Assembly: GCA_000565255.1 (NCBI GenBank)
Contig: ASRH01000003.1
Location: forward strand, 62,001 to 126,000
Direction: 5' to 3'
Source of the DNA: Candidatus Aramenus sulfurataquae
Lineage (GTDB): Archaea > Thermoproteota > Thermoprotei_A > Sulfolobales > Sulfolobaceae
DNA length: 64,000 bases
Shown here one piece after another: positions 53,419 through 63,446 of the stretch; within the stretch, counting starts at the first letter, position 1; each line of letters starts with the position of its first letter. A model generated the notes under the pieces. That model was not told the DNA's origin, did not search any database, and saw nothing but the letters and a program-made list of their open reading frames with translations. The position numbers and the translations under genes are program-made.

Positions 53419-54057
53419 CTAGTCGCCGTGGAAAGGCGTAGGATCCATCCTCATGGAAGAGTCCCAGAACATTATCTCGAAATTAACGCTGTCCATAAAC
53501 ACCTTGAATAGACCCTCACCTAGATCTACCGAGTTTAGAGCTTCAAGGATGGCTTCAACCCTCGTTCTGTAATCTTGAGAGGAATAGAACTCTGCCCACT
53601 TATTGTACAAGGGGTTTGGGGAGCCTAGGACGTATTTCCCCACTTCCATGTATCCCCACATGCACGGAGCCCACGCTACGAGAAATTGCTTCCAGCCCAA
53701 GTTAGAGTGGTAAAACAAGTGCCTAGTGTAAGCGTAGTTTACTAACGAGTAGCCAGTATCTTGGATCTCTCTTTCGTTTACCTTAAGCTGGCTCAATAAA
53801 AAGGAATGGACCTCGCTTCCCTTGTCCCTGGTTTGGAATACTTTGAGTATGATTTTAGAGACTTGGTCTATAGGTCCCTTTGATGAAGCGTTTAAGAGGC
53901 TTTTGAGCATTACTCTAACGTATTTGGAGTCCTGAATGAGGTAATATCTGAAGTTCTCTAGCGGCAGGGAGCCATCTTTCATCCTTTTAACAAAATCGTG
54001 CCTGACGTACTTCTCCCATAGCTCTCCTACGCTTTCTTTTAGAGCGTCGGAGTTCAT
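53419..54057 (-). CDS. TenA/thiaminase II-family protein
   Basis: 212 residues with the TenA helical fold: LWEKYVRHDFVKRMKDGSLPLENFRYYLIQDSKYV at the start, the catalytic Cys in WAPCMWGYMEVG, and the C-terminal Glu in VNFEIMFWDSS. TenA hydrolyses aminopyrimidine products of thiamin breakdown for salvage; some archaeal members differ. ATGA overlap with the SDR gene upstream, first of three tightly linked genes on this strand (54057 back to 56722). Confidence 0.88.
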   Translation of the reverse strand: MNSDALKESVGELWEKYVRHDFVKRMKDGSLPLENFRYYLIQDSKYVRVMLKSLLNASSKGPIDQVSKIILKVFQTRDKGSEVHSFLLSQLKVNEREIQDTGYSLVNYAYTRHLFYHSNLGWKQFLVAWAPCMWGYMEVGKYVLGSPNPLYNKWAEFYSSQDYRTRVEAILEALNSVDLGEGLFKVFMDSVNFEIMFWDSSMRMDPTPFHGD

Positions 54058-54779
54058 AATAGCCTTGCACCTCCATCTACTGGTATTATCACTCCATTAA
54101 CCCACTGGGACTCCTCAGTCATTAGCCAGACTATTACTCTAGCAAAGTCCTCTGGAGGTGCCTTTGGATCGCCTAATTTCCTCAACTTCTTCCAATCCCT
54201 ATCCGGTTCAAATTCCCCATCTATCCAGCTTGGAGCTATTCCAACAACCCTTATTTCCTTCTTCACTAGTTCCGTAGCCAGTACTTCCACTGCTTTGGCT
54301 AACCCAGCCTTAGCTATTGAGTAGGAGAGTTGGTTTGGCAACGCCTTGTCTATTCCCCTTATAGCAGACACTAGGACAATGGTTGAGCCAGGGTTCATGA
54401 ACCTCACGGCCTCTGAGACCACGTAAAGCGGGTACTTTACGTGGTTGTTTATCATCTCGTCAAGCCCCTTTAAGCTGTGCACGTCGTCCTCCAAGTAGCC
54501 ACCTATGAGCACGGCTAGCCCGTCCAGGTTTCCGAACTCCTTATAAGCCCTCTCTATCACGTTACGTGCACTCTCCCTGTCTACTATTCTACCATCAACG
54601 TACTTCACGTTACCATACTTGCTGAGCGCATTGGTTATCTCCTTTAGCTTCTCTACGTTTCCTGAGTTTACTATTACGTTTGCTCCTTCTCTAAGCAAGA
54701 AGTACGCTAGCGCGTAACCCAAGCCCTTGCTTACTCCAATCACCAGAACATTTTCTCCCTTTAGTCTCATCACTCTCAC
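54054..54779 (-). CDS. Short-chain dehydrogenase/reductase
   Basis: A 241-residue classical SDR: the cofactor motif [16 protein letters not shown] (GxxxGxG), NAG equivalent in AVLIGGY, catalytic Ser and Tyr/Lys in VLVSAIRG and [13 protein letters not shown], and a C-terminal [10 protein letters not shown]. The substrate is unknown (3-oxoacyl or sugar-alcohol reductase are common). Overlaps both neighbours by 4 nt (ATGA type), so it is translated as part of the TenA operon. Confidence 0.9.
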
Positions 54780-56722
54780 GTTAATTTTGTGCGTAGCAAC
54801 GCTTTTACTTTTTCTCCGTCTGTAACTGGAAGGCTACAAGTATTCCCCACGCATACAAAGGCCCTGCTCCTTCCCTTTCCCTCGTTTATCATCGACCTTA
54901 CAGTGGAGCTCACCTCGTCCTTGTGGTCCACTGATACCCTCTCGACTACCTTGAACGGGTAGTAGAGAAGTAAGGCTTCTCTGTGCAGTTCATCAGCCTT
55001 TCCGTCTTTCTCGTCAACAACCACTACGTGAGCCCCACCCTTCAAGTATGCACCTAAAGTGTTTACTAACCCGGCTAGGAAGGTAAAGTCCTCAGATCCT
55101 GAGATCACGTCTAGTTTATTGCCAACTTTGGCGTAGTCGAGAAGCTCCAGTTTGTATATCCCTCGTAACGCAGAGGACACCGGAGACTCGTTTGGCATGT
55201 CGTGCTTGGGTATATTGCCAAAGGAGTCCACAAACTTTCCGTTTACCTCAAAGGAGCTAAGCTCTTGGTACACGTCAAGGGCCCTCTGAAGGTACTTGCG
55301 ATCTGAGGTCACCTCATATGCGGCAATTAACGCGTTTAGAGCTGATGCGTAGTCCTCGAGAAGGCCATCGTCGCCGCCGTCTAGCCTTCTACTCACTTTC
55401 TTTCCCAGTTTGCCGACTACGGCTAGAGCCTCTTCTCTTCCCTTTCCAGTTATTAAGGACGCGTAAAGTAACGACTCAGCGGCGACGCAGTTTGGATGAG
55501 TATAGGCGTTTTCGTCTACGAATGGCCTACTCCTAGTCCTGTCCCGGTACTCCCTAAGTTTTTCCCTCACCGTCCATAATTTCATGATAATCTGTTCAGG
55601 GAACGAATCAGTGCTCCTTGCCAGTTCCCCTATCTCGTAAGTTAGCCTGAGCACTTTCCTTCCCTCTACTTCTCCCCCAGGCTCAAAAATCCCAAACACC
55701 TTTTTGTAGTATCTGCTTTCCTCTCCTAATGCCTCGTCCATCTCTTTCTCCGTCCAAGTGTAGTATCCTCCCTCAACGCCGTCGCTATCCGCGTCGATGC
55801 TGTTTGCAAAACTGCCCTCTCTCATGAGATCTCTCAAAAGGAACTGGACTGTGAGGTCAAGAGCGTCTTTAATCACAGCATCTCCAGTCGCAATGTACCC
55901 GTTAAAGTAGTCGTAAATTAATTCCGCGTTATCTATTAGCAACTTCTCAAAGTGCGGAGTGGTCCATTCCCTGTCTACTGTGTACCTATGGAACCCGCCT
56001 CCTGCCTGGTCGAACAGACCCCCGTAGTACATCCTACTTAGGGTGAAGGACGCCAGCTTCCTCCCTAGATCCTCGCCAGTCCAGGCCGTATACGCAAAAA
56101 GGAACTGATCTATCTTAGGGTGGGGAAACTTAGCTGAGGTTCCTATACCACCATACTCGATGTCGTAAGCTCCGACAATTGCGGAATAGGTTGAAGCTAC
56201 AATATCCACCTCCGCCTTTTCATTGCCCTGCAAGGAGGTCTTCAAATTTGCGACGTGTATGGAGGAGGACTCTATTTTTCCCCTCTCTTGGTTCCACACT
56301 CTCAGTATTTCCCTAAGTAACCTTTTCAGTCCGATCCTACCATAGGAGTCCTCTGGAGGGAAATACGTACCGCCGAAAAACACCTTTTTGTCCGGTGTCA
56401 TGAATACGGTCAAGGGCCAGCCTGACTCTCCGGTTATCGAGTAAACTAAGTTCTGGAGGGTCCTGTCTAGGTCTGGCATCTCGTCTCTGTCCACTTTGAT
56501 AGCCATGAAGTTCTCGTTAACTATTTTAACTACCTCTGGATCCTCGTAGCTCTCGTCCATCACGTGGCACCAGTGGCACCATGCCGCCCCCACGTCAACA
56601 AGGACGGGCTTGTTTTCCCTCTTCGCCTTCTCAAAGGCCTCCTCTCCCCAAAGGAACCAGTCTATAGGATGATTAGTCGACTCCCTTAGAAAAGCGCTCT
56701 TGCTGTTAGCTAACTTATTCAT
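54776..56722 (-). CDS. YyaL/DUF255 thioredoxin-domain protein
   Basis: About 648 residues: a thioredoxin-like domain ([19 protein letters not shown] with the Cxx[25 protein letters not shown]) followed by an (alpha/alpha)6-barrel glycosidase-like domain ([40 protein letters not shown]). The family (bacterial YyaL, SPATA20) has no firm function. The frame extends to 56914, but [22 protein letters not shown] at 56722 is the family N-terminus, with TATA ~27 nt before it; the longer form would overlap the surface-protein gene. Confidence 0.88.
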
Positions 56723-56763
56723 ACATAAAACGATAAATACAGGAATATAAGTCCAAGAATATG

Positions 56764-57399
56764 TTACGTTTTCTTCCTGGTTAACAAGTAGATTGCGCCG
56801 AACAAGCCTAGGAATCCAAAGCCCATCACGTCGTACTTGGGTAACGAAAACGAGGGTCCGTTGCCCTTTACGAATACTGCAATTATTGACTGGTTTCCAA
56901 AGGCGATAATCCACATTGGGGACATGGAAGACAAGTTAGACCAAGAATAGAACGAGTAGCCCTTTCCTGGTTTGGGGATTAGGGATAGCGAAGTTCCCTG
57001 GATAACTTTGACTACGCTTGAGTTTCTGACTATTTCAGATGAACCGTTGTCGAACTTAACTATCACCTCACCGTTGCCCTCAATTGTGATGTTAACGTAA
57101 GATAAGATAGGGACCAGTGAAACATTAACGTAATTAGTAGTGTTCGGATTTATTTGCGTCTCATACGTGGTGTTTCCGTTTATCTCGACTTGATATCCAA
57201 GTTGGGTAGTGTAAGCCATAACGTAGACTGTTCCGTTTTGAATTTCGACTGTCTCGTTTTTGCTCACTGTTATTATGTTATTCCCTTCTTCTATCATTAC
57301 CGTAATTCCACTTCCGTGGATGTTAACGTGAAGTGAGTATGAGGAAGTAATTGTAGGCAGCACTAAAAGCAGGAAAAGGAATAGAGATGGCGCCTTCAT
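56764..57399 (-). CDS. Secreted membrane-anchored hypothetical glycoprotein
   Basis: 211 residues: signal peptide ([17 protein letters not shown]), an extracellular beta-rich region with ~12 N-glycosylation sequons (NET, NGT, NTT, NVS, NIT, NGS, NSS), including a bacterial-Ig/InlB-like [11 protein letters not shown] segment, and a C-terminal span ([16 protein letters not shown]) with TRKKT. A surface-protein architecture; function unknown. Confidence 0.72.
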
Positions 57400-57677: not shown

Positions 57678-58550
57678 ATGAAGGTAATACTAGGTATCCC
57701 CGACACAAGGGTTCCTGTATGGGAACTTGGAACCCCCCTCATGGTCAACCAGCTCTCTTGGGACAGGGTCCCTTGGCCCAACGAGACCTGGGTGGACTCT
57801 GGTGGATACCAGATTATGCTGAGGGGGGTGAAGGTAGACCTGAACGCCGTCCTAGAGAAGTACAAGTTGCTCGACGCAAAGTACTATATGAGCCTTGATG
57901 TACCGCCGCCTACGCCGTGTAGTAAGCCCTCAGAGGTAAACTTCAAGCACTTTGAGTATTTATACAGTTCCTTAGAAAAGAAAATAATTCCAGTGATCCA
58001 TGCGTACGACGTTGAGTCGCTCAGGGAGGCCGTGGACTTCTACTCGCAGTACACTGACACGGTTGCCTTTGGCGGTATAGTGCCGCCCTCGCTTAACGGG
58101 GGCGGCGGCAAAAAGCTTGCGATAGTCACTTACAAGCTGTTAAGGAGGGAGTGGAAGGGTAAGGTGCACGTCCTAGGCGCAGGCTCACCCTTCATGAGGA
58201 AGCTATTCTACGACGCGGACAGCGTCGACACGTCGACTTATCGGATAAAGGCAATACACGGCATGGTGTTAATCCCTGGCCTAGGCGAGAGGTACGTGGG
58301 TGATAGGAAAATAGTTTGGAAGGCTAAGAGGGCCACGCACGAAGAGGTAGAGACGTTGCTTTCCTTTTTAGAGAAGACAAGGTTTCCATTTACTCCCAAG
58401 TTGGACCACTGGAAGGGGAGGGCGTTGATCAACGCTTGGGTTCTTTTGTACTCGGAATACGAGGTAGACAACCCCTTAATTGCGTACTCTAAAGGGTTGA
58501 AAGACCCAGAGGAGGAGGTAAATGAGCTCTGCTTGCGAAAGGCTCTATAG
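57678..58550 (+). CDS. TGT-like protein (N-terminal ArcS-type domain)
   Basis: 290 residues with a tRNA-guanine-transglycosylase-like barrel: WVDSGGYQIM (D40 at the position of the TGT general base), DVPPPTPCSK, VAFGGIVPP (compare the TGT GGL loop) and DSVDTSTYRIKAIHG (D181-D184, near the nucleophile position). The TGT zinc-site cysteines are missing. It overlaps the next gene by 29 nt, and that gene has the ArcS signature. In euryarchaeal ArcS a TGT-like domain and that core domain form one chain, so these look like the two halves of a split ArcS or a related base-modification enzyme. Whether tRNA or DNA is the substrate is open. Confidence 0.75.
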   Translation: MKVILGIPDTRVPVWELGTPLMVNQLSWDRVPWPNETWVDSGGYQIMLRGVKVDLNAVLEKYKLLDAKYYMSLDVPPPTPCSKPSEVNFKHFEYLYSSLEKKIIPVIHAYDVESLREAVDFYSQYTDTVAFGGIVPPSLNGGGGKKLAIVTYKLLRREWKGKVHVLGAGSPFMRKLFYDADSVDTSTYRIKAIHGMVLIPGLGERYVGDRKIVWKAKRATHEEVETLLSFLEKTRFPFTPKLDHWKGRALINAWVLLYSEYEVDNPLIAYSKGLKDPEEEVNELCLRKAL

Positions 58551-59112
58551 CTACTTACCGCCGACTAGGGAGCCAGTGGCAAAGGTCGACGGAGTGGACA
58601 TGTTTAGACACCCCGTAGTAAAGGCGTGGCACGAGTACTTCTTAAAGGAGTGGAGGAGTGACAAAGACGTTGCCTTGCTCTTACCTTGCACCTCAGTGAA
58701 GCCCTATAGCCGTTCGGCCACTCATAGATTAGCGTACGCGTTACTCAAGAAGTACGGGCTAGAAGGGAGGGTGCAGGTGTACTCTGTCTCTGAGCCCATG
58801 TTACTTGTACCGAGGGAGTTGGAGGAATGCTACCCCTTTAACTCCTACGACTATCCTCCTGCTAGGATGACCGAGGCGGAAAAGGAGGAGTTCTCAGAAC
58901 TTTTAGTACCATTCCTCAGGAAAGTCTCTTCGCAACACAGGAGTCTCGTCGCAGTCCTCCCTAGACACCACTACAAGGTAGTCGAAAAGGCCAGTAGGCT
59001 AGCTCACGTCAGCGTCGAGCTACACAGTTACGGGAGACTTGCGTTCAAGACAATCTCCGGTGTAATTGCTCATCTGACTTCCTCCCCGCAAAGCGAGGGT
59101 TCTGGGCATTGA
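58522..59112 (+). CDS. ArcS core-domain protein (DUF5591-like)
   Basis: 196 residues. [16 protein letters not shown] (residues 53-68) fits exactly the archaeosine synthase signature PCx3KPYx2Sx2H, in which the Cys/Lys region binds and amidates 7-cyano-7-deazaguanine. The ArcS C-terminal PUA domain is absent. The last ~10 residues (SPQSEGSGH) are encoded by antisense DNA of the adjoining tnpB relic, so the native C-terminus was probably replaced. It is translationally coupled with the TGT-like gene. Sulfolobus is known to use GAT-QueC for archaeosine, so this pair could do something else. Confidence 0.75.
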
Positions 59113-59590
59113 GACTCTGTCGAGCCCCTCATTTGCCCAGCAGTCGAGAGGATCGGAGATCCCCTCCCATAAAGGTTCATAACTGCAATAACGTCTCGGT
59201 CGTCCTCATAACCACATGAAACACATCTAAATTGCCTATGAGAGTATTCCTTCATCTTATTTCCGCATTTAGGACAACGAGTAGAAGTGCAATAAGCGGG
59301 CAACTTTACGACTGTGAGGCCGCGTTTTATTGATTGCCACTCAATCCAATATTGAATGTGGTGATACCGCATTAAGTACAGTTTCTCGTGAAATGGTTTG
59401 GCCAGCTTGCCTACATTCTTGATCAAGCCATTTAAATCCACAAGAAGTGGATACATTATACATTTTAGCGACGTCAACTACCCATTTTCCTGTTTTCTTA
59501 GCAAAGTCCTCTCTCCAATGGGAGTCTAGGAAAAAGGGAAGGAACGTTTTGACGCTTGAAAAATCCTGACTTAAGGTCCAATTTAAGATA
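59070..59590 (-). pseudogene. tnpB (IS200/IS605) remnant, truncated and frameshifted
   Basis: The C-terminal TnpB zinc ribbon is clear: [13 protein letters not shown] and [23 protein letters not shown], preceded by [17 protein letters not shown]. Upstream, the matching sequence (DSHWREDFAKKTGKW, then [10 protein letters not shown]) is in another frame, so one base is inserted near 59441-59446. The first ~two thirds of the gene, including RuvC residues, is missing; no tnpA. Its 3' end overlaps the ArcS-core gene. Confidence 0.85.
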
Positions 59591-59595
59591 AAGGG

Positions 59596-61320
59596 TTAAG
59601 GTGGTGCAGTTATCTTGATTGACGACATCCTGTAGGCTTCTTTCAGGGCCTCCTCTGGCCTTAAAGAGTACTTGATAATGTACTTCTTCACTTCCTTGTA
59701 GCTCTCTAGGCTCTGAACTACTTCCTTTGACATTGAGAGCAACTTCAAGTACGTCGCTCTCCTTTCTATCTCATTCTTTACCTCGTCGAGCGACTTACCC
59801 ATCTCCCCGATCCTGGTTAACAGGACCTTAGCGTTTTCTAGCATAAGGGTATGCGTATCAGACTTGGGCTCCCACGACGATACTCTCCTGAAGTCGTTGT
59901 AGCTTACGATCTCGTCTATAGCTACTGCCCTTCTCCTTAAGACTATCTTCTCCCCTACATATACGGGCAACCTCCTGACGTTAATCATTATGTTCATCAT
60001 GGGTATCCACTCCTTGGGGATGTTCAGAGGCTCGTTCATCAGCCTCTTTATTGCGCTGTCTGTATCGTATGCGTGGAAAGTAGTAGCTCCTCCGTGTCCT
60101 GTGGATAGAGCTTGGAAGAGGACGTAAGCTTCCTGCCCCCTTATTTCTCCGACCACGATTATATCTGGCCTATATCTTAGGGACAACTTCAGTAAGTCCA
60201 TCAAGGTTATTTCTTTTCCTGCACCTCCATATACTTCCCTTGTATGTAGTTGCACCCAGTTATCTTGGGCAAGTCTTATCTCAGGGATATCTTCTATGGA
60301 CACTATCTTCATTGACTCCTTTGCGAGGTTGAGGATGGCGTTTAACATTGTAGTCTTTCCTGCACCGGTGACTCCGAGGACCATGAATGACATCCTTAAA
60401 TCTATGGCGTACCACAAGTAGGCGGCAACTTCTGGAGATAAAACTCCAGAATTGGTCAAATCAAGAATCGTTATTGGCCTATCGTTAAATCTCCTGATCA
60501 CGAAGGAGGAACCCCTGGCACTCACTTCCCTCCTGAAGGTAGCAGCTATCCTGTCTCCCTTTGGCAGGATTCCGTCGTTTATTGGAGTGGCTATCGAAAT
60601 CGTCTTGTTGGCTAGGGTCATGTACCTCATCACTATTTGGTCCAACAGCTCTGCTCCGTCAACTTCGATGTCGAGCACCTTCATGTTTTCCTTTATCACA
60701 ATATTTGTGGGTAGGTACTCGTACTCTTTGTGGTATACGAAAATCGGTAAGTCAAGCCCGCTACACGAAATGTCCTCTATTTTATAGTCAGCTAAAAGGG
60801 GCGTTAGGATGTTATAGCCAAACATGTTTCTCAATAGGTAATAGAGGGATATCTTACCTCTAGTACTTAGTACTTGTAGTTCCCCCTTGCTTCCTTGGAT
60901 TATTTCTAAGTCTTTTCTCTTCATAGAGGCATCGTAGATTACCTTACCTAGATCTAGCTGGTCTGTCTTGGAGTTGAGAAGTTCTCTCTCAATCTCACTA
61001 ATGAGATATTTATATATCTCAAACGATTGGTTGTCTATTGGTGGCTCGATTAAGACGTACTTGTAGATATCCTTGTTAATATCATAGGTAATGAAGACGT
61101 GTGGGTTCGCTATGTTGAGCTCTATTTTCGTCTTCGCGAAGCTGTCCCTTATCTCAGGTGGAATACTCCCTAAAATATTTATATCATAGTCAGAAATAAT
61201 TTCTGTTACCTCTTCAACTGGAGCAGAGAGAGGAAGGAGGTTGACGGGCATCTTAACCTCTGTAGTCCTAGACTTGCCATTGCTACTGCTGAACTTTAAC
61301 TTGGAAAATACACTTGCCAT
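59596..61320 (-). CDS. Type II/IV secretion-system ATPase (GspE/ArlI family)
   Basis: 574 residues: an N-terminal domain with DINILGSIPPEIRDSF, then the secretion ATPase core with Walker A GVTGAGKTTMLNAIL, the Asp box VSIEDIPEIRLAQDNW, Walker B IIVVGEIRGQEAYVLFQ and HGGATTFHAYDTD. Such ATPases power assembly of archaeal type IV pili or archaella. The cognate platform protein is encoded divergently 270 bp away; no pilin or prepilin peptidase gene is in the window, so it could not be assigned to Aap, Ups or Bas. Confidence 0.92.
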   Translation of the reverse strand: MASVFSKLKFSSSNGKSRTTEVKMPVNLLPLSAPVEEVTEIISDYDINILGSIPPEIRDSFAKTKIELNIANPHVFITYDINKDIYKYVLIEPPIDNQSFEIYKYLISEIERELLNSKTDQLDLGKVIYDASMKRKDLEIIQGSKGELQVLSTRGKISLYYLLRNMFGYNILTPLLADYKIEDISCSGLDLPIFVYHKEYEYLPTNIVIKENMKVLDIEVDGAELLDQIVMRYMTLANKTISIATPINDGILPKGDRIAATFRREVSARGSSFVIRRFNDRPITILDLTNSGVLSPEVAAYLWYAIDLRMSFMVLGVTGAGKTTMLNAILNLAKESMKIVSIEDIPEIRLAQDNWVQLHTREVYGGAGKEITLMDLLKLSLRYRPDIIVVGEIRGQEAYVLFQALSTGHGGATTFHAYDTDSAIKRLMNEPLNIPKEWIPMMNIMINVRRLPVYVGEKIVLRRRAVAIDEIVSYNDFRRVSSWEPKSDTHTLMLENAKVLLTRIGEMGKSLDEVKNEIERRATYLKLLSMSKEVVQSLESYKEVKKYIIKYSLRPEEALKEAYRMSSIKITAPP

Positions 61321-61592
61321 ATTAGTAGTATTAAATTTTCTTCCTTATAAATCTTGCAAACTCTAATATTTATGAATTAAAAAGAGACAATGATATACTA
61401 TAGGAAATTCTATGACAGAAAGACTAAAATTAATTGTGCGATCCAAGTATTTTGGCTCTCCGATTTTATCCGCGATCTAATGTCTCATATAACCGCTCAC
61501 TCGTCTCCGAAACTAAATTGTTTCAATATACGTTTAACAATGTGTTTTAAGAAAACATACTGGTTTAAAATATCTTAATACAAATAGACGTT
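61321..61592. other. Divergent promoter region, no gene
   Basis: 272 bp, AT-rich. TATA-like AAATTTAATAC for the ATPase gene (near 61332-61342 on the minus strand) and TTTAAAATA (61563-61571) ~26 nt before ATG 61593. A 62-codon ORF inside is not protein-like. Confidence 0.6.
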
Positions 61593-63446
61593 ATGACATT
61601 AAAGTTAAGGAAGATTTCGACTACTGGAACCCCTATCGCTAAAAACACAGGAAACGGTCCAAGTTCGTTGTACATGGGATTTTATAACTTAGGCTTAGTG
61701 AAGAGAATGGCAAAGAGCTACCAAGAGAAGTTGATGTTAGCTGGATTGACTGAGGACCCCGTGCTTTTCGCTGCAAGGACGTTCTTCTTTACGTTAGTGG
61801 GATTAGCGATAGGCCTAGTGCTAATGATATTTGGAGGACTTATCTTGTTTAAGTTCTATCTGCCCCTGAGGGAGCCTAAGTTCCTGGCAGTGTCCCTCAT
61901 GATGATAATGTTCGGTTTGGTAATCCCGGTGGTAACGTATTTCATTTCCTATCTAAACGTATCGCAAGCCATTGACAACAGGAAGAGCGGCCTTAACGCA
62001 GAGACCTTTGCATTTTCTGCAGTCTTCATAATATTCCTTAGGTCGGGGCTAAGCCCTAGAGTTCTATTTGAGAGAATTCCTAAGGTAGGTGCATTCCAGT
62101 ACGTATCACAGCTTATGCTCTACGGCTACAAGAGGATGAAGTACCTAGGCGAGAGCGTTGAAGACGCTCTCAGAGAGACCACGAAGGTCTCTCCCTCGAA
62201 GCTCTTTAATGACTTCATAAGTACTTACATTACCGCGGTTAGAACTGGGGCCCCAGTGATCGAAACAATGGAGGCAAAGGTGAGAGCCCTGTTAAGAGAG
62301 TTCGAACTACTTGGCGACAAAGCGGCTGAAAACTTATCTGGAGTAGGAGAGGGTTATGTAATATGGCTAGCGTCAGGCTACATAATGATATTCTTGGTGT
62401 TGATACTTGAGGCAGTGTTCCCCCAACTAGGCGGGGGATTAACGCTCGGGCTTATGGGAGCAGTAGCCGTTGTGCTCATTCCGATGGTCAACCTAGTTTT
62501 CGTCTTTATGGCTGACTCGATCCAGTTAAAGTTCCCTGAGAGGAATCTGAGCTCGTATAAGGTATTTTACGTGACTTTCCCCATTGGTATGATAGTGACC
62601 TTCGTGATATTAGCGTTACAACACCAGCTTTTCAATTTGTTTACTTTATCTGGCACAGTCCAGGACATAGTTCCCACTTCGATAGCGATCTTGATCGGCT
62701 TGCTAATAGCGTCTGTCCCTCCTGCAATCGTAACTAACAAGGAACTAAGGGAGGGGACAGGCTACGATCAGTACGTTGTGAACTTGCTTAGGACCATTTC
62801 TGAAGGTCTGAGAGCAGGCCTATCCCCTGAGGCAGTCATAAGGAACTTGAAGGACTCCAAGGAAATGGGAAAGTTGAGATACGTGCTAAGGGCCATCGTG
62901 GCTTACGTTAATCTAGGCTATCCCCTAAAGGACGCCATAAGGAAAGGTGCAGACAGGATAAACGACTTCACTTCTAAGATAGCCCTGCTATCCCTGGCGG
63001 ACATGTTGGACATAGGCAGCTTAACACCAGAGACGGTAGAGGTTCTTGCACAGCAAATAGATAGCCAGATCCTTGTGAGGAGCAAATACCTAAGCAAGGT
63101 AAAGATACTGATGGCGACTCCGTATGTAGGCGTTGTCATAGCCCTAATCGCATCAGTATTCCTAGGGATCGCTGTGGTCAAACTCATACTAGTCCAGAGC
63201 TTTTCCTACGGTCCGCTGGTTCTAGCCTCAGAACTCTTACCTAAGGCGGTGTACATTTCTGCAGTTTCCTCCATCTATAATGCGTATTTCGCCGGGTTCT
63301 TAGTGGGTAAGCTGGGCTCTGGAAAGATGGCAACAGGCTTCCTCCACAGCATCATATTAGCGGTAGTCACTACGGTAATGCTTATCGTAATGCTCCACGT
63401 TAACATAGGCTTCGTGACTCCCAGTAGTTCCTCAGCGACACTGTGA
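61593..63446 (+). CDS. TadC/FlaJ-like pilus platform membrane protein (duplicated T2SSF)
   Basis: 617 residues, 9-10 membrane spans in three groups. Two T2SSF-type cytoplasmic domains: residues ~120-240 (SGLSPRVLFERIPKVGAFQYV, RTGAPVIETMEA) and ~390-500 (EGLRAGLSPEAVIRNL, GYPLKDAIRKGADRINDF). Such proteins anchor the ATPase and pilin subunits in the membrane. Divergent from the ATPase gene. Leaderless ATG at 61593. Confidence 0.88.
   Translation: MTLKLRKISTTGTPIAKNTGNGPSSLYMGFYNLGLVKRMAKSYQEKLMLAGLTEDPVLFAARTFFFTLVGLAIGLVLMIFGGLILFKFYLPLREPKFLAVSLMMIMFGLVIPVVTYFISYLNVSQAIDNRKSGLNAETFAFSAVFIIFLRSGLSPRVLFERIPKVGAFQYVSQLMLYGYKRMKYLGESVEDALRETTKVSPSKLFNDFISTYITAVRTGAPVIETMEAKVRALLREFELLGDKAAENLSGVGEGYVIWLASGYIMIFLVLILEAVFPQLGGGLTLGLMGAVAVVLIPMVNLVFVFMADSIQLKFPERNLSSYKVFYVTFPIGMIVTFVILALQHQLFNLFTLSGTVQDIVPTSIAILIGLLIASVPPAIVTNKELREGTGYDQYVVNLLRTISEGLRAGLSPEAVIRNLKDSKEMGKLRYVLRAIVAYVNLGYPLKDAIRKGADRINDFTSKIALLSLADMLDIGSLTPETVEVLAQQIDSQILVRSKYLSKVKILMATPYVGVVIALIASVFLGIAVVKLILVQSFSYGPLVLASELLPKAVYISAVSSIYNAYFAGFLVGKLGSGKMATGFLHSIILAVVTTVMLIVMLHVNIGFVTPSSSSATL

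Follow-up and report, generated by a model that had tools for sequence, protein, structure and literature searches.

The window, i.e., the whole analyzed stretch of 64,000 nucleotides from Candidatus Aramenus sulfurataquae, harbors a pair of overlapping genes on the plus strand, in the following named gene 1 and gene 2, at the edge of a transposon relic. The features of the locus are:

53419 to 57399, minus strand: left flank with four genes, including those for an SDR and a DUF255 thioredoxin-like protein, syntenic in genera g1, g3, and g5
57678 to 58550, plus strand: gene 1, predicted zinc-less DpdA-type protein of TGT fold, 290 aa
57795 to 57812, plus strand: DSGGYQ with Asp40 (gene 1 residues 40-45), invariant in 31 sequences
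57897 to 57899, plus strand: Asp74 of gene 1 (MSLDV), invariant, matching the second conserved Asp of arcTGT in the alignment
58227 to 58229, plus strand: Asp184 of gene 1 (SVDTST), invariant, aligned to DSFDSASY of arcTGT and SCDSSSW of CAjan DpdA
58522 to 58550, plus strand: overlap of genes 1 and 2 by 29 bp, with overlapping genes also in the viruses STSV1, STSV2, and STSV4
58522 to 59112, plus strand: gene 2, predicted ArcS catalytic core (DUF5591) without PUA domain, 196 aa
58684 to 58725, plus strand: ArcS motif PCx3KPYx2Sx2H of gene 2 (14 letters, residues 55-68)
59072 to 59477, minus strand: IS200/IS605-type relic with C-terminal TnpB part, not part of the proposed system

An earlier note on this DNA had described two open reading frames with DSGGYQ, missing zinc cysteines and an ArcS motif, and all of these were confirmed at their positions. 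A sequence scan of gene 1 revealed no CxCxxC zinc motif, and its only two cysteines (81 and 285) are not conserved. The residues D40, D74, and D184 are identical in 31/31 sequences of an alignment comprising hosts, viruses, Ignisphaera, Thermoproteaceae, and Njordarchaeota, and Asp184, from its alignment with the Asp motifs of arcTGT and CAjan DpdA, is the expected nucleophile. The motif PCx3KPYx2Sx2H, for which gene 2 was the sole match in a six-frame scan of the window, is kept in all 27 aligned gene 2 relatives. In comparison with the sister species (G001), dN/dS amounts to 0.10 for gene 1 and 0.29 for gene 2, and both genes are under purifying selection.

The transposon relic described before is real and encodes, on the minus strand, the last 135 aa of a TnpB. 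It was, however, placed beside the pair, while the IS end actually lies inside gene 2: as five other IS copies in the same genome start at about window position 59072, the right end of the IS must have contributed the ~12 codons with which gene 2 ends. The core of gene 2 is nevertheless intact. The left neighbors of the pair are the same across genera g1, g3, and g5, and the locus is therefore an old chromosomal one. The right flank has been rearranged, since the sister species features other genes there. Beyond the relic (59596-63446), genes for a type II/IV secretion ATPase and a T2SF membrane protein (pilus/archaellum type) were found. A decaying copy of the pair occurs in one genome of genus g10 (G029, L118:7296-8052), in which gene 2 is intact, whereas gene 1 has shrunk to a short remnant and the KAP NTPase, a protein treated below, is missing.

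The AF2 model of gene 1 (pLDDT 91.5) features a TGT-type fold, with arcTGT (1iq8) as the best solved structure in Foldseek (E=1.3e-10). Nevertheless, sequence comparisons place the protein closer to the transglycosylases of phage DNA. It matches phrog_887 with E=1.2e-43, a family which also matches the DpdA of phage CAjan (8e-96) and of a Synechococcus phage (1e-63) but not arcTGT, and which may itself contain STSV and rudivirus relatives. Independent of this composition, direct hhalign comparison of the gene 1 family gave E=2.5e-8 over 223 columns to CAjan DpdA and E=1.4e-12 to Synechococcus phage DpdA, vs. E=2.4e-5 to arcTGT. No match of gene 1 to the ArcS models NF040592 and NF053620 was found at E<=1, whereas the arcTGT of the same genome reached 7.5e-27 against an ArcS model. 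Four tests, namely the PHROG match, the profile alignments, the missing match to ArcS models, and the invariant Asp residues, thus concur in assigning gene 1, as a predicted enzyme, to the DNA transglycosylases (DpdA). It has the TGT-like fold, is closer to proven DpdA than to tRNA TGT, and keeps the catalytic-site Asp. In phage CAjan, dPreQ0 in the DNA is lost on deletion of dpdA (PMC6884629). The phage enzymes (CAjan and Synechococcus phage Ssp-JY38) resemble gene 1 in size, the absent zinc motif, the Asp motifs and a C-terminal RAxxNxW-like stretch. In contrast to them, gene 1 is paired with an ArcS core and is chromosomal in hosts, while the Synechococcus phage DpdA adjoins genes for preQ0 synthesis and DNA polymerase. 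PADLOC models, including those for DpdA, did not match gene 1, and a PADLOC search with the pair yielded nothing useful.

Gene 2 matches Pfam PF17884 (DUF5591) above the curated cut-off (E=4.1e-20) and positions 253-409 of the 575 in the ArcS model NF040592 (E=6.8e-21), scoring 74.5 of 440 bits on the latter. The solved ArcS-like protein AF0587 (PDB 2q07) was matched by sequence (E=1.6e-9) as well as by the predicted fold (E=2.1e-6), and the fold further shows a distant match to SMUG1-type glycosylases; confidence of the model is low at residues 189-196. DUF5591 is the only domain in the 196 aa. Neither the PUA/tRNA-binding C-terminal part of ArcS (domain scan and structure model) nor a TGT-like part is present. 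Hence, gene 2 is predicted to be the catalytic core of ArcS freed of its PUA domain, in a comparison made with curated models rather than with a complete euryarchaeal ArcS sequence. It shares the core and the full motif with archaeosine synthase alpha (NF040592) and differs from it in lacking the TGT-like and PUA parts and the RaSEA partner. The ArcS of Thermococcus kodakarensis transfers lysine to the bare preQ0 nucleoside, with a 5'-phosphate being helpful and tRNA not required (PMC11298593), so a protein without the tRNA-binding parts need not be inactive. The idea of a split archaeosine synthase holds for the ArcS core in gene 2 and for the TGT fold of gene 1, as also seen from the structure prediction proposed for each protein, with 2q07 as the counterpart of gene 2. 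The view that gene 1 represents the TGT-like half of this synthase was rejected, as the protein is blind to the ArcS models and nearer to phage DpdA.

The genome search for arcTGT and gat-queC proposed before found both in the genome of Ca. A. sulfurataquae. Among the relatives searched, arcTGT is present in nearly all, with or without the pair. Likewise, 30 of the 31 family genomes encode a QueC-domain protein of ~470 aa, the length of GAT-QueC, irrespective of the pair, the exception being a genome (G002) of 79% completeness. In the protein of Ca. A. sulfurataquae, the N-terminal half resembles a glutamine-amidotransferase domain, as judged by eye. RaSEA (TIGR01210) had no match in this genome. 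The tRNA route thus appears, from its gene content, complete without the pair, and the pair is not needed for tRNA archaeosine. The earlier suggestion of a second route to tRNA archaeosine has accordingly become unlikely, while another of its three options, a DNA-base modifier of the virus type, gained support. Elsewhere, in genus g17, a RaSEA-like radical SAM domain and the ArcS core (DUF5591) share one ORF of ~450 aa (L182:1456-2811, genome G046), which looks like a crenarchaeal ArcS-RaSEA fusion. Further RaSEA-like/DUF5591 sites are located at G036:C1:611478-612617 and on G065:C62, and in families f2, f4, and f6 matches to both adjoin each other.

Relatives of the pair also occur in viruses. 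STSV1 (ORF18/19), STSV2 (15/16), and STSV4 feature an orthologous adjacent pair as in the host, with 60-69% identity (68-69% and 61-64%), which lies near genes for ThyX, DNA methyltransferase, and dCTP deaminase. Rudiviruses differ from this by encoding a TGT-like relative of gene 1 (33-41% identity) with no relative of gene 2 detected in them; in the search of viral contigs with gene 2, STSV1 and STSV2 were the only matches. A blastn search of the pair against plasmids provided nothing useful. In both gene trees, the STSV sequences form one clade inside the spread of Sulfolobaceae, with the deeper order being weakly supported, which fits a capture of the pair from hosts by the viruses. A modification of STSV1 DNA was reported in 2005 and is described in a later paper as being located on cytosines (PMC11208441). 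As STSV1 moreover encodes DNA methyltransferases, this modification cannot support a 7-deazaguanine base, and it was set aside as proof of one. In rudiviruses, the gene 1 relative adjoins a permease-like membrane protein (L121:1793-2992, L123:3815-5074, and L124:1808-2998), through which a 7-deazaguanine precursor could be taken up or released.

In the three genomes of genus g3 and in six of the seven of g5, a same-strand cluster directly downstream of the pair encodes HerA, a KAP NTPase, and a coiled-coil protein; a NurA-domain nuclease comes next in those g3/g5 genomes whose examined stretch reaches that far. The operon proteins matched a HerA-type DUF87 helicase (1.9e-37), KAP (6.4e-5, for an NTPase of ~1010 aa with a KAP/STAND-like P-loop), and NurA (4.3e-16). 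The genome of Ca. A. sulfurataquae contains an intact four-gene HerA-KAP NTPase-coiled-coil-NurA operon outside the window and unlinked to the pair (contig C6, 61828-68204; L203:3829-10205). Pair and operon are likewise unlinked in g1, g4, g9, and one further genome (G005). In g9, a NurA-domain protein follows gene 1, and in MAGs of Caldivirga and Thermoproteaceae HerA is the neighbor of gene 1. A Desulfurococcales MAG (L140) features an independent arrangement with the pair, NurA, HerA, and a 1478-aa AAA protein on one strand. As HerA and NurA are both common in the genome of Ca. A. sulfurataquae (9 and 5-6 matches, respectively), their nearness alone is weak evidence and was rejected as such; the specific KAP NTPase was used for the co-occurrence test instead. 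Within the family, the 18 genomes that carry the pair all encode this NTPase, whereas it was found in none of the 13 pair-less ones (Fisher p=5e-9 when counted by genome and 0.002 when counted by genus). These p-values overstate the independence of the cases, because the GAT-QueC tree shows only about four changes between presence and absence, two of them on well-supported branches. STSV1 and STSV2 differ from the hosts here, with no match for the KAP NTPase. The operon HerA scores 98 bits vs. the 800-bit cut-off of the housekeeping model and is by this score predicted to be a divergent paralog. As expected of a modification-restriction system, the genes of the putative modifier and those of a DNA-processing nuclease are linked or co-occur.

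With moderate confidence, the pair is therefore regarded as the self-marking half of a Dpd-like defense of the restriction-modification type, which viruses probably captured as an anti-restriction device. This reading draws on homology, folds, conservation, synteny, linkage, and co-occurrence, from which we infer the DNA substrate, the chemistry, and the defense role. Gene 1 would exchange chosen guanines of the DNA for preQ0 supplied by the tRNA pathway of the host. The cysteine in PCx3KPY of gene 2 would attack the nitrile of the inserted preQ0 to form a thioimide, and an amine, either lysine or ammonia from Gln/Asn, would then be added to give a 7-deazaguanine derivative. The resulting mark would label self DNA, while unmarked invading DNA would be handled by the HerA-type translocase, the KAP/STAND-like NTPase, the coiled-coil protein, and the NurA-domain nuclease. 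The STSV pair, being without the NTPase, would let viral DNA pass for that of the host. As the ArcS core has no RaSEA partner here, a possible final base is dPreQ0-Lys, the lysine adduct of 2'-deoxy-preQ0, although it is doubtful that precisely this compound serves as the archaeal self mark for HerA-KAP-NurA restriction, copied by STSV to pass as host. To our knowledge, this hypermodified base has not been described from the DNA of any organism. In the literature, no measurement of 7-deazaguanines on any of these DNAs was found.

Three other explanations were weighed against this defense reading. In the first, the pair would modify tRNA or other RNA, either as an ArcS divided over two genes or as an additional pathway to archaeosine. 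This would agree with gene 2 being closest in sequence to tRNA ArcS and with arcTGT being the best solved match to the TGT fold of gene 1. Still, this explanation is unlikely, as arcTGT and GAT-QueC occur irrespective of the pair, this genome yields no RaSEA match, gene 1 resembles phage DpdA more than arcTGT and is unmatched by ArcS models, and gene 2 is devoid of the PUA domain. Moreover, the pair tracks viruses and DNA-handling ATPases. The second alternative is a DNA-modifying pair without a role in restriction, whose modification serves stability, repair, or regulation, with HerA-KAP-NurA being a repair machine merely traveling along. Archaeal HerA and NurA also function in break repair. 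This role, the missing linkage of pair and operon in g1, g4, and g9, the several HerA/NurA copies of this genome, and the distant resemblance of the gene 2 fold to SMUG1-type glycosylases speak for this alternative, which is nevertheless rather improbable in view of the patchy presence by genus, the adjacency in two separate arrangements, the capture of the pair by viruses, and an operon HerA far below the housekeeping cut-off.

In contrast, an origin of the pair as the remnant of an STSV-like provirus decaying in the host seems highly improbable. The adjacent pair of STSV1/2/4 with its 60-69% identity and the IS relic at the edge of the pair would be in line with it, but the same chromosomal site with the same left neighbors in three genera, the position of the STSV genes as one clade amid the spread of Sulfolobaceae, dN/dS values of 0.10-0.29, and the lack of further viral genes adjoining the pair point the other way. 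A fresh viral insert or provirus remnant was consequently rejected on account of the synteny across three genera, and transfer from host to virus fits better.

The kinds of systems closest to the proposed one appear, by their gene content, to be bacterial Dpd islands and the HerA-centered BRC, which have the logic in common with it while consisting of different parts. Bacterial Dpd islands (dpdA-K) likewise comprise a DpdA-type transglycosylase, a second preQ0 enzyme, ATPases, and a nuclease (PMC11888242; PMC12839542), and the distinction of self from non-self would be shared as well. In the archaeal system, however, an ArcS core (DUF5591) takes the place of DpdC (DUF6884/DUF328), HerA, the KAP-like NTPase, and NurA replace the dpdD-K set, and gene 1 is more akin to phage DpdA and matches none of the PADLOC DpdA models. 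Neither dpdB (ParB-like) nor dpdD-K genes were seen at the loci of pair and operon. BRC (BREX-related capture, NAR 2026), described from bacteria and archaea, features a HerA/FtsK translocase and a STAND-type NTPase, to which a subset of the systems adds a TGT for which self-marking was proposed; BRC is defined by PglZ, DUF6079, and DUF4007 (PMC12839542). The translocase, the NTPase, and the TGT of the subset liken BRC to the proposed system, which differs by an ArcS core and NurA instead of these three defining proteins. None of the three was found at pair or operon, the matches of the operon proteins being limited to DUF87, KAP/STAND-like, and NurA domains. No paper on an archaeal HerA-NurA-transglycosylase system was found in the open-access literature, though it may have been noticed earlier elsewhere.

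If the defense reading is true, the range of 7-deazaguanine marking of DNA would grow to include the chromosomes of thermophilic archaea that are well studied. The annotated "queuine tRNA-ribosyltransferases" of STSV and rudiviruses would gain a role in DNA anti-restriction instead of one on tRNA, and the operon of HerA/NurA paralogs would gain a substrate. Nucleoside mass spectrometry across genera of Sulfolobaceae with and without the pair would allow for a direct test. Besides, haloarchaeal plasmids encode fusions of ~670 aa which combine a zinc-bearing TGT domain with an ArcS core (L149:4441-6462, L149:7176-9140, and L150:4462-6465). These fusions sit near large helicase/ATPase genes and possibly represent a parallel DNA-modification defense.
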